Source: Anaerolineae bacterium
GTDB lineage: Bacteria; Chloroflexota; Anaerolineae; Anaerolineales; Villigracilaceae
DNA: 57,225 nucleotides
Direction: 5' to 3'
Assembly (NCBI GenBank): GCA_003130845.1
Contig: QEXW01000062.1
Location: 1-57,225 of the forward strand
This document shows positions 26,870 through 28,725 of this stretch, one piece after another; within the stretch, counting starts at the first letter, position 1, and each line of letters starts with the position of its first letter. The translations under genes were made by a program, and so were the position numbers. Below the pieces are notes generated by a model. It did not search any database. It saw only the letters and a program-made list of their open reading frames with translations, and was not told the DNA's origin.

Positions 26870-27399
26870 GCATCTCTCCGGGTGAAAATTTGTCTAGCCA
26901 TTCGACACTTTTTTTGGATGCAGATTCACGCGGAAAACGCGGAAGTCTTCGGAAAACACGCTTTTTGTCTGCGTCTAATTGGGCTGTATGGTGGTTAGCA
27001 ATGTGTTTATGGTGAGTATTTCGTTTTTTTCTTGCCTGTTTTCTGCGGTGGCAAGAAACAGCAGATCAACGAGCAAGTTCTCGTTTTTCCTGTGCCGCTT
27101 AGGCACTTGTAAAGCATGTCAAAAGCCGAGAGGAAAAAACGATTATCTTCTTGGGTTTGGTGTGAAGGTCAGAAACTTGGGGTGGTTTGGAAACGAAGTT
27201 CGCTTTTTGCCGGTGTATTGAAAAGGGAATGCAGATTTTCTCGTTCAGATAGCACACTGTCTGCTCAAATTGTATTACGGTTTTACAAAAATTACCCCAA
27301 ATTGAAGCATTCTGCCAAGAGCCCCTGGCTTTTTTCTGTCTGTCAACTCAAAAAGGAGATGGTGGTGAATGTGCAGCGCGCGCCCGTCTTATGCGGTCA
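26870..27399. other. Gene-free region before tRNA-Lys
   Basis: About 530 bases with no convincing gene. Open frames of 80-95 codons on the plus strand lack a good ribosome binding site and have no domain-like features. The region is A/T-rich in parts and includes the degenerate repeat at 26917-26961. Confidence 0.5.
26917..26961. repeat. Degenerate GCGGAAAA-type dispersed repeat
   Basis: Short near-copies of the words CACGCGGAAAA, ACGCGGAAG and TCGGAAAACACGC occur in a row. This style of tandem debris is common in intergenic DNA of environmental bacteria. Confidence 0.4.
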
Positions 27400-27427
27400 T
27401 TGACACATTGTTTCTTTGGGGTATAAT
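27400..27427 (+). promoter_or_regulatory. Consensus promoter of tRNA-Lys
   Basis: TTGACA (27400-27405), 16-base spacer, TATAAT (27422-27427), 15 bases before the tRNA. Confidence 0.88.
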
Positions 27428-27442
27428 ATCGTCCGCTTTGTT

Positions 27443-27514
27443 GGCCGACTAGCTCAATGGCAGAGCAACTGACTCTTAATCAGTGGGTTCAGGGTTCAAG
27501 TCCCTGGTCGGTCA
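27443..27514 (+). tRNA. tRNA-Lys (anticodon CTT)
   Basis: A cloverleaf folds by hand: acceptor GGCCGAC/GTCGGTC with one G-T pair, D-arm GCTC/GAGC, anticodon stem ACTGA/TCAGT with loop CTCTTAA (anticodon CTT), variable loop GGGTT, T-arm CAGGG/CCCTG with loop TTCAAGT, discriminator A. CCA is not encoded. It has its own consensus promoter and terminator. Confidence 0.95.
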
Positions 27515-27518
27515 CACG

Positions 27519-27557
27519 ACATGACTCATTCCTTAAAGTTGGGTGAGTCATGTTTTT
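27519..27557 (+). terminator. Terminator of tRNA-Lys
   Basis: ACATGACTCA (27519-27528) pairs with TGAGTCATGT (27544-27553), followed by a T run. Confidence 0.85.
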
Positions 27558-27609
27558 GTTTGAAGGTCACGATAGGTGTACTCGAGCGGCATTTTTGCAT
27601 TTTTGCAGG

Positions 27610-27638
27610 TTGTTACAAGCCGCATTAAGTCGTAAAAT
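27610..27638 (+). promoter_or_regulatory. Promoter of the corA leader
   Basis: TTGTTA (27610-27615), 17-base spacer, TAAAAT (27633-27638). It implies a leader of about 150 bases before corA. Confidence 0.55.
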
Positions 27639-27669
27639 TGGCAAGTCATTCTAAAGAAAGGAGCATTGC

Positions 27670-27783
27670 ATGTCCAGCGAAAGCGACCGTTCCGGCGCCG
27701 CAGAAAGCCAGCCTCCTAGTGCTGGCCATGACCCTTTAACGGCGGGCGCTTTCGAGCGCCCTCCTACCCCTAACTTTTCTTAA
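27670..27783 (+). CDS. Proline-rich leader peptide candidate upstream of corA (37 aa)
   Basis: A 37-codon ORF with an excellent ribosome binding site (AAAGGAG, 6 bases upstream). It begins with an acidic/polar part (MSSESDRSGAAES) and continues with QPPSAGHDPL and FERPPTPNFS, so it holds six prolines, several after acidic residues or in runs. Its stop codon forms the start of the corA ribosome binding site (TAAGGAG), 12 bases before the corA ATG. Proline-rich leader ORFs are known regulators of Mg2+ transporter genes (mgtL, mgtP in Salmonella), which makes a regulatory role plausible. It could also be a chance ORF. Confidence 0.5.
   Translation: MSSESDRSGAAESQPPSAGHDPLTAGAFERPPTPNFS
27678..27761 (+). 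promoter_or_regulatory. Mutually exclusive RNA hairpins in the corA leader
   Basis: GGGCGCT-TTCG-AGCGCCC (27744-27761) is a perfect 7-bp hairpin with a TTCG tetraloop near the end of the leader ORF. The upstream segment CGAAAGCG (27678-27685) is fully complementary to CGCTTTCG (27747-27754), which spans the 5' arm and the loop of that hairpin, so the two pairings exclude each other. A third hairpin GCCAGC/GCTGGC lies at 27707-27726. This arrangement resembles a translation-controlled attenuator. Confidence 0.5.
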
Positions 27784-27795
27784 GGAGAAGCGCTC

Positions 27796-28725
27796 ATGCT
27801 GAAATTTATCAAAAGCACCGACCAAGGCTTGCAATGTCTTGATTCGTTTGTCAACGGTTGTTGGGTCAGCGCCATTGACCCCACGCCGGATGAAGTTAAG
27901 CAACTTGAAGAGTGGGGTGTTTATCCAGAGTATGTGCAATACTCGCTTGATATTGATGAAATGGCACGCGCCGAGCGCGATGAAGATTATACGTTTATTC
28001 TGATGCGCATTCCGTTTGATAACGGTGCCGCGGCCGACATCCCCTACATTACTTTGCCGCTTGGCATTATGTTACTTAATAACTGTGTCGTAACCATTTG
28101 TAAGCAGGAAAACGAAGTAGTTCGTGCTTTGCAAAATGGCAAATACCGTGGTCTAAAGACGGCCAAACGCTACCGCTTTGCTCTGTATCTGTTGCTCGAA
28201 GCAGCCACCCGCTACCTGACTCTCTTGCGGCAAATCAACAAAACAACGGAGGTGATTGAGGACCGACTGGAAAAATCTACCCGTAATCGGGAAGTGTTGG
28301 AGTTGTTGAAATATCAAAAGTGTTTGACTTATTTCGCTACTGCTTTGCGCTCCAATGAAGTTATGATGGAGCGGCTGCGTCGCATGCAAGTTTTCAATCA
28401 GTACGAAGAGGACCAAGACTTGCTCGAAGATGTGCTGACCGAAAATCAGCAGGCGATTCAGATGGTCAATATTGCCTCTGAAGTGCTGGCTGCCCTGATG
28501 GACGCTTTTGCCAGCGTTATTTCGAACAACTTGAACGTCATCATGAAAATTTTGGCGGCGCTCACCATTGCGCTTAACATCCCCACCATCATTGCGTCGT
28601 TTTATGGGATGAATGTGGAATTGCCTTTACAAGAAAATCATGCCGCCTTTTTGTATATCATTCTGCTTTCGGTTTCTCTTACTGCTCTCGCAATTTATAT
28701 TTTCTATAAGCGTGACTGGCTCTGA
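27796..28725 (+). CDS. corA: CorA-family magnesium/divalent cation transporter (309 aa)
   Basis: Pentameric Mg2+ channel of the cytoplasmic membrane. The long cytoplasmic alpha/beta and helical domain (residues 1-245) is followed by two membrane helices, the first ending in the family signature YGMN (FYGMNVELPL, about residue 275), the second ending in a basic C-terminus (YKRDWL). TAAGGAG precedes the ATG. The next gene overlaps its stop by one base (TGATG), and the proline-rich leader lies directly upstream. Confidence 0.93.
   Translation: MLKFIKSTDQGLQCLDSFVNGCWVSAIDPTPDEVKQLEEWGVYPEYVQYSLDIDEMARAERDEDYTFILMRIPFDNGAAADIPYITLPLGIMLLNNCVVTICKQENEVVRALQNGKYRGLKTAKRYRFALYLLLEAATRYLTLLRQINKTTEVIEDRLEKSTRNREVLELLKYQKCLTYFATALRSNEVMMERLRRMQVFNQYEEDQDLLEDVLTENQQAIQMVNIASEVLAALMDAFASVISNNLNVIMKILAALTIALNIPTIIASFYGMNVELPLQENHAAFLYIILLSVSLTALAIYIFYKRDWL

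Follow-up and report, generated by a model that had tools for sequence, protein, structure and literature searches.

The window analysed here is the whole stretch of 57,225 nucleotides, and the features that concern us are its corA gene and the sequence directly upstream of it (Table 1). The encoded protein carries a YGMN motif (by eye) and matches CorA chains in the PDB (4cy4, E = 1.1e-28; 4ev6, E = 1.4e-28). A preliminary description of this DNA had placed a 37-codon ORF with a ribosome binding site before corA, and this was found as described, with AAAGGAG 6 nt from the ATG and corA starting at 27796. The peptide, MSSESDRSGAAESQPPSAGHDPLTAGAFERPPTPNFS, was said to contain acidic residues and six prolines, and five acidic residues and six prolines were counted. 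The leader stop codon TAA (27781-27783) overlaps the corA Shine-Dalgarno sequence, and the ORF ends 12 nt 5' of corA. The same overlap and the same distance are found in L032, the 94% relative of the window.

Table 1 Features of the corA leader region in the window
Feature	Position	Strand	Remarks
Probable promoter of the corA transcript	27610-27638	+	TTGTTA, 17-nt spacer, TAAAAT; 9/12 consensus matches (consensus scan)
Leader-ORF Shine-Dalgarno sequence, AAAGGAG	27657-27663	+	6 nt 5' of ATG; read from the sequence
Leader ORF	27670-27783	+	37 codons; conserved part is codons 1-17, with Pro15-Pro16-Ser17 at 27712-27720
Segment 1, leader codons 3-8	27678-27691	+	Can pair with segment 2 (8 bp + 5 bp helix)
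Segment 2, P2 5' arm and loop	27741-27754	+	Pairs with segment 1 or segment 3
Hairpin P2 (2:3), proposed anti-sequestor	27741-27764	+	Core 27744-27761, UUCG tetraloop
Hairpin P3 (3:4), sequestor predicted to bury the corA Shine-Dalgarno sequence	27754-27795	+	Excludes P2
corA Shine-Dalgarno sequence, AAGGAG	27782-27787	+	Read from the sequence
corA, CorA-family Mg2+ transporter	27796-28725	+	309 aa; PF01544, E 1e-54

Upstream of the probable corA promoter lies a tRNA-Lys gene (27443-27515, anticodon CTT) with a perfect TTGACA-16-TATAAT promoter at 27400-27427. An inverted repeat followed by T's, CATGACTCA...TGAGTCATG (approximately 27520-27557, by eye), which is absent from the terminator-scan output, may terminate the tRNA-Lys transcript ahead of the corA promoter. 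The terminator scan covered 27380-27900 and returned a single intrinsic-type site, at 27823-27841 within corA, which rules out an intrinsic terminator between the leader and corA. Rfam gave no match in 27515-27900 at E values up to 1, M-box included, and only tRNA in the whole window at the gathering score. Of 74 relatives, 59 have a T[AT]NAAT hexamer no more than 60 nt before the start of the leader ORF, the pattern being a short one. In six relatives (L082, L067, L107, L103, L081 and L094) a -10-like hexamer starts just 14 nt 5' of the leader ATG, so that a near-leaderless leader transcript is possible in these six.

Relatives of corA were collected from 61 and 152 whole genomes (overlapping sets; among the matches listed, at most 30 loci each) and from a genome-contig collection (the best 80 of 227). 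Under a loose rule, which asks for at least two acidic residues before Pro-Pro, Pro-Leu or Pro-Ala, a leader ORF was found in 80 of 98 distinct corA upstream regions and was missing in 18. Nine relatives at 61-64% identity fail this rule (L010, L063, L064, L068, L080, L086, L087, L089 and L091), and some of them carry shorter or different acidic ORFs. A stricter fixed pattern of early acidic residues followed by Pro-Pro-Ser was applied to all 102 distinct regions, added loci included, and was matched in 75. Of 273 control regions, taken from these loci upstream of other long ORFs, 6 match the pattern, as do 5 of 2040 shuffles. The alignment of 74 peptides, which omits L030, L108, L109, L022, L023 and L019 from the 80 as distant, doubtful or mis-started, yields the consensus M-Y-x-T-D-E-S-D-L-[GS]-S-S-[DE]-x-[QN]-P-P-S. 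Pro15 is present in all 74 rows, partly by construction given that rows were chosen for the Pro-Pro/Leu/Ala motif. At position 16, Pro occupies 68 rows and Leu 5, with Ala in a single row; Ser17 is found in 67. The sole Ala belongs to L032, which reads Pro-Ala-Ser and has lost the second proline. An acidic pair, adjacent or one residue apart, precedes the first Pro-Pro/Leu/Ala in 66 of the 74 leaders, and the first Pro of that motif falls at codons 15-17 in 63. The leaders of relatives are mostly 23-43 codons long. The composition that had been described for the window, six prolines with acidic residues, holds in so far as an acidic and proline-containing leader is conserved, and fails for four of the six prolines, conservation being limited to the Pro15-Pro16 pair, the second of which L032 does without.

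Selection on the peptide was assessed from 31 nearest-neighbour pairs. Over 15 conserved columns, 63 synonymous single-base codon differences were observed against 57 non-synonymous ones, with an expected synonymous fraction of 0.21 from the consensus codons, and the base differences at codon positions 1, 2 and 3 number 50, 34 and 100. Past Pro-Pro-Ser the entropy is nearly equal across codon positions (1.39, 1.37 and 1.55), and the C-terminal part of the leader is free in length and sequence. By these comparative measures, the first ~17 leader codons evolve as coding sequence and the part after Pro-Pro-Ser does not; the sequence 3' of Pro-Pro-Ser looks constrained, if at all, as RNA. A chance ORF is ruled out by the motif counts together with this coding signature, and on sequence evidence the leader ORF is real and conserved and belongs to corA. 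A short ORF, apparently translated, is situated directly 5' of a Mg2+ transporter gene, and codons of the presumably ribosome-destabilising type, acidic and proline, occur early in it. That the constraint on the peptide ends at Pro-Pro-Ser favors a cis effect of the nascent chain.

Downstream of this conserved part, two hairpins compete for the same bases in the window. The perfect tetraloop hairpin reported earlier was recovered at 27744-27761 as a perfect 7-bp stem closing UUCG; with the two outer pairs added in 27741-27764, P2 has a predicted energy of -15.8 kcal/mol (z -3.35), and 0 of 200 shuffles were as good. P3 consists of 11 bp (27754-27759:27790-27795 and 27761-27765:27783-27787) and is the best-scoring element, at -16.4 kcal/mol and z -4.87, again with 0 of 200 shuffles as good. 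Since both hairpins require bases of 27755-27761, they cannot coexist. The unusual stability is limited to these local elements, as the whole 185-nt leader scores z -0.63 with 50 of 200 shuffles as good. Its best fold combines P3 with the pairing between segments 1 and 2. P2 and P3 were each forced in five longer stretches taken from the window, giving folds 0.1, 0.9, 0.6, 5.5 and 0.4 kcal/mol apart, the gap of 5.5 kcal/mol arising in the shortest stretch, without segment 1, where P3 is favored. Forcing P2 still leaves the corA Shine-Dalgarno sequence able to join a weak local hairpin at 27774-27790 (-4.6 kcal/mol, z -0.60, no better than shuffles), and the price of keeping that sequence open with P2 formed is 2.5-5.6 kcal/mol. 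P2 would therefore ease access to the Shine-Dalgarno sequence in the window rather than fully free it. Mutually exclusive folds, one of which would be off, are predicted for this leader, the prediction being weak in part of the window's clade.

The exclusive hairpins suggested by the preliminary description were built on a different pairing, in which 27678-27685 (CGAAAGCG) is complementary to 27747-27754 (CGCUUUCG). The two segments are exact reverse complements, as claimed. The helix can be extended by five pairs at 27687-27691:27741-27745, two of them G-U, and the minimum-energy fold of the 185 nt holds 7 pairs of the 8-bp part. As a general feature of the leaders, this pairing was rejected, with a median z of 0.08 over 75 leaders; it is thus an addition specific to the clade of the window, which comprises eight sequences (L001, L032, L105, L112-L115 and L036). 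Within the clade, the best duplex between the early leader codons and the P2 region is better than the mean of the shuffles in seven of the eight sequences and reaches z < -1.64 in 6, ranging from 0.04 (L105) to -3.39 (L036). These best duplexes do not always consist of the base pairs of 27678-27685:27747-27754, and one position of the 27678-27685 helix is A-U, G-U or G-C across clade members (by eye). The earlier proposal, which was to fall if relatives kept neither the ORF nor the pairing, therefore stands on the ORF, with its motif in 75 of 102 regions, and on the pairing in this clade only. Exclusive hairpins are indeed predicted, and the widespread pair is the one that had been missed, P2 against the Shine-Dalgarno-burying P3.

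We scanned 102 upstream regions for these RNA elements: 87 with a CorA identity of 59.5% or more in which a Shine-Dalgarno sequence is recognisable, nine more distant ones that also have it, and six without it that were placed in neither group. In the 87 nearer relatives, the Shine-Dalgarno-burying duplex has a median z of -3.60, with 82% below -1.64, and the hairpin in the P2 region a median z of -3.17, with 90% below -1.64. The corresponding medians in the nine distant relatives are 0.07 and -1.06. None of the eight sequences of the window's clade reaches z -1.64 in the Shine-Dalgarno duplex scan, in which the outer arm of P3 was clipped in L001, L032 and L105. When P3 was refolded whole, it stands out in L001 (-4.87), L032 (-4.14), L036 (-3.07) and L105 (-2.31) and stays weak in L112 (-1.56), L033 (-1.04) and L035 (-0.57). 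It is also in the window's clade that the leader ORF extends into or beyond the hairpins.

Covariation had been named beforehand as a check on the pairing, and its outcome differs between the two hairpins. Two alignments, hand-picked subsets of distinct regions, were used: A1 (70 rows, 3' modules) and A2 (45 rows). Among the 70 rows, changes on both sides were found in 8 of 10 pairs of P2, amounting to 27 cells against 11.3 +- 2.6 in shuffled alignments; all slides gave fewer cells than P2, and the -1 slide also involved 8 pairs (18 cells). P3 shows such changes in 6 of 11 pairs and 15 cells, against 4.7 +- 2.0 when shuffled. Its +1 slide scores higher than P3 itself (9 pairs, 19 cells), and for this reason the covariation of P3 is weak. 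From these alignments, covariation is moderate for P2 and weak for P3. RNAalifold found no structure in the 70 diverse 3' modules and recovered P2 in the more uniform 45 rows of A2, in which an aptamer-like conserved unpaired core was not seen by eye. The position of the leader stop codon relative to P2 was recorded in 63 relatives, that is, the 70 rows of A1 minus seven without an ORF in the set. It lies in the 5' arm in 43, upstream in 16 and in the 3' arm in 4; in the 59 with the stop in or upstream of the 5' arm, it is ~39-63 nt 5' of corA. We dropped the idea of a stop-codon U conserved for wobble pairing in the P2 arm, as any stop codon located at that column supplies the U by definition. 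Rfam searches of nine relatives returned only tRNA and a cspA element, both away from the leader. A cspA thermoregulator match was seen at L041:5860-6226, on a Chloroflexi contig (82.2 bits against a gathering score of 78).

To examine the distribution of the leader, a covariance model, R1, was built from 45 mainstream leaders. Of 400 genomes of the order, 68 contain a single R1 site each; 67 of these genomes belong to the window's family, and some of them had supplied training rows for the model. By eye, 66 of the 67 sites in this family reach the start of corA, and the one in G022 ends ~40 nt short. The remaining match, in family f13, is doubtful (E 0.009). Over 396 genomes of the class, all 14 matches fall within the window's family. 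The leader of the window is not detected by R1 in the searches of its own genome, the order or the class, the single match in its own genome (E 0.53) lying away from corA. It is tied to the R1 family only by peptide motif, position and fold architecture.

A leader of similar appearance is found in a second family, f14, where an ORF ending in Pro-Pro-stop (e.g., MDEDHLSQDEDPLSSSKKPP) precedes corA in 10 of 16 loci, is absent from the other 6, and occurs in 0 of 269 controls; one f7 locus also has such an ORF. The resemblance between the two leader types, DPLSSSKKPP and DLSSSDNNPPS, was judged by eye. Tentatively, the two could be read jointly as a nascent-peptide Mg2+ sensor of the Anaerolineales acting on corA translation through a co-transcriptional, metastable anti-sequestor, with the peptide and not the RNA conserved across two families. 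The sensor motif would then be an acidic repeat, a Leu-Ser-Ser-Ser-like stretch and Pro-Pro, followed by Ser or stop, and its Pro-Pro-Ser and Pro-Pro-stop variants would each operate in one family on a different RNA platform.

Other RNA elements were noticed in f14. Seven loci (L171, L172, L165, L174, L177, L170 and L176) contain a riboswitch-like region ~100-250 nt upstream of corA, before the Pro-Pro-stop leader, with a long terminator-like hairpin that ends in a U-rich tail (GCGCUUCC...GGAAGCGC-UUU is one example); a pairing further upstream that would compete with it, such as CCGGACU...AGUCCGG, was seen by eye. In two loci checked, it lies ~250-370 nt past the nearest of the upstream ORFs listed, which are of at least 90 aa. 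Rfam at E values up to 1 gave no match near the region in L171 and one sub-threshold match elsewhere in the locus. The region is possibly an undescribed transcription attenuator of corA. Separately, a hairpin of the GGGC-AGUU-GCCC type was seen by eye at or near the 5' side of the corA Shine-Dalgarno sequence in L165, L170-L172, L174-L178 and L022; in f14 it occurs in leaders with the Pro-Pro-stop ORF.

From sequence comparison and folding predictions, we consider it somewhat probable that the leader peptide operates 27610-27795 as a cis-acting attenuator of corA translation. Our confidence is lowered by the window's Shine-Dalgarno sequence, which is predicted to be partly paired in the P2 state, and by the weakness of P3 in part of the clade. 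Translation of the leader would select the fold and so set the translation of corA. P2 would form first on the nascent RNA and leave the corA Shine-Dalgarno sequence more open, P3 would turn corA off, and where the ribosome stands on the leader ORF would determine which of them prevails. Low Mg2+ is the likeliest signal, though a putative one and the weakest link of the proposal. Less certainly, scarce Mg2+ would cause ribosomes to pause or drop off at the acidic and Pro-Pro codons, P2 would persist and CorA would be made; with ample Mg2+, ribosomes would complete the leader ORF. Given that 59 of 63 relatives have their stop codon no further downstream than the P2 5' arm, a ribosome that completes the ORF could disrupt P2, and P3 could then form. 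The finishing ribosome would be on or beside the P2 arm in these 59, less surely so where the stop is further upstream. In the window's clade, the pairing of segments 1 and 2 would favor P3 when segment 1 is free of ribosomes. The direction of control in the window itself is uncertain, because a ribosome at the stop could re-start on corA.

The switch was followed in further folding predictions, for which one of the 45 A2 rows had too few P3 columns to enter the ribosome-masked and growing-transcript sets. For transcripts that extend at least to the base preceding the corA ATG, the P3-forced fold is lower than the P2-forced fold in 38-40 of 44 mainstream leaders, by a median of 2.6-4.0 kcal/mol. 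Growing transcripts of five leaders were folded. The best fold in L069 and L065 is P2 until the Shine-Dalgarno sequence is made and P3 afterwards; in L078 and L032, P2 was not seen early; in L001, P2 is best at all lengths tried. Masking a ribosome footprint in 38 leaders produced no switch, the mean P3 probability being 0.83 with no ribosome, 0.81 with one at Pro-Pro and 0.85 with one at the stop. Accessibility of the Shine-Dalgarno sequence is lower with the ribosome at the stop than at Pro-Pro in 26 of 40 leaders (p 0.07), a comparison disturbed by local pairs around the start of corA. With codons 4-6 or 15-16 occupied by a ribosome, the window's Shine-Dalgarno sequence stays mostly paired, being open at 0.03-0.24 against 0.13 without a ribosome, and it was opened only by a footprint close to the Shine-Dalgarno sequence itself. 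As masked folding at equilibrium shows no switch, the switch would need kinetic control, with which the growing-transcript folds agree in 2 of the five leaders. We accordingly assign the choice of fold to the nascent RNA during transcription, an inference that forms the weakest structural step; these predictions give the RNA switch a good outline but no proof.

The same RNA switch could be served by a different input. If stalling at Pro-Pro made the leader a sensor of proline supply, EF-P activity or general elongation stress rather than of Mg2+, the level of CorA would be tied to translation capacity. We regard this as unlikely. In its favor are the first Pro in 74 of 74 leaders (partly by construction), Pro-Pro in 68 of 74, an EF-P gene in the window's own genome (which also encodes bL31), the similar-looking f14 leader ending in Pro-Pro-stop, and the report that in Salmonella EF-P works via the prolines of mgtL and mgtP (PMC6460261, in the portion considered). 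However, only a single Pro pair is conserved, acidic pairs are about as frequent (66/74), the 94% relative lacks the second Pro, and the gene under control is a Mg2+ transporter.

It is rather improbable that the leader ORF mainly couples translation, with finishing ribosomes opening the Shine-Dalgarno sequence and re-starting at corA and the peptide sensing nothing. The arrangement in the window and in L032, where the stop overlaps the corA Shine-Dalgarno sequence 12 nt before the gene, is what such coupling would use, and a ribosome masked at the last codons of the window leader opens that sequence, trivially so since the footprint reaches it. Against coupling, 59 of 63 relatives have the stop within the P2 5' arm or further upstream, ~39-63 nt before corA, and selection at the peptide level would be left unexplained. 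That selection also makes it very improbable that the RNA itself is a Mg2+ riboswitch with an incidental ORF, for which the closeness of the two folds in the window (-15.8 against -16.4 kcal/mol locally, and at most 0.9 kcal/mol apart in four of five longer stretches) could be cited; no Rfam match, M-box included, was obtained, and A2 has no aptamer-like core by eye. A small functional protein acting in trans would fit the coding signature but is hardly credible when constraint stops at Pro-Pro-Ser, the C-terminal part varies in length and sequence, and the R1 family matches directly adjoin corA.

An attenuator of corA run by its leader peptide would extend a mode of sensing described for enterobacteria, in which leader peptides read Mg2+ through ribosome stability, to a phylum known here mostly from metagenome-assembled genomes. 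The preliminary description knew of no Mg2+ leader in this phylum, in agreement with the open-access literature, where no report of such a leader in Chloroflexi/Chloroflexota or Anaerolineae was found among the matches listed. If true, a conserved corA leader with a different motif in a distant phylum would suggest that Mg2+ sensing by the ribosome is widespread or has more than one origin. The dozens of natural leader variants provide a ready series for residues that destabilise or stall ribosomes.

Mg2+ transporter genes are also controlled from upstream by the M-box/ykoK riboswitches. The corA leader described here differs from these in having a conserved coding ORF instead of an aptamer, and it has no Rfam match. 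In the parts of the cited papers considered here, three enterobacterial leaders come closest. The leader mgtL of mgtA (E. coli/Salmonella) raises expression of the transporter through ribosome dissociation at low Mg2+ (PMC11282234, PMC6460261), and acidic residues near the start, whether neighboring or separated by one residue, are stated to stall ribosomes and in some cases to dissociate them (PMC11282234). The corA leader likewise has acidic and proline codons near its start; its motif is DESD...PPS against EPDP in mgtL, and its visible output is a buried Shine-Dalgarno sequence, whereas mgtL acts through Rho-dependent transcription termination. The leader corL of corA (E. coli/Salmonella, PMC11552253), whose translation is inversely related to corA expression, shares the position of the ORF before corA and the two alternative RNA folds; unlike the leader here, it has few acidic or proline residues and works with Rho, and no switch that buries the Shine-Dalgarno sequence is described in the portion considered. 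In mgtQ of Salmonella (PMC8092293), early acidic codons are combined with stems 1:2 and 3:4 that exclude 2:3, and 3:4 hides the ribosome-binding site. What the two leaders share is a short ORF ahead of a Mg2+ transporter gene, with acidic codons near its beginning, exclusive stems and, as predicted here, translational control. However, mgtQ, located between mgtC and mgtB of one operon, is 8 codons long, whereas the corA leaders mostly have 23-43 codons and a longer conserved peptide ending in Pro-Pro-Ser, belong to another phylum and, in the window, have a probable promoter of their own. By analogy, the corA leader may be grouped with mgtL, mgtQ and corL by its presumed way of working, not as their homolog.
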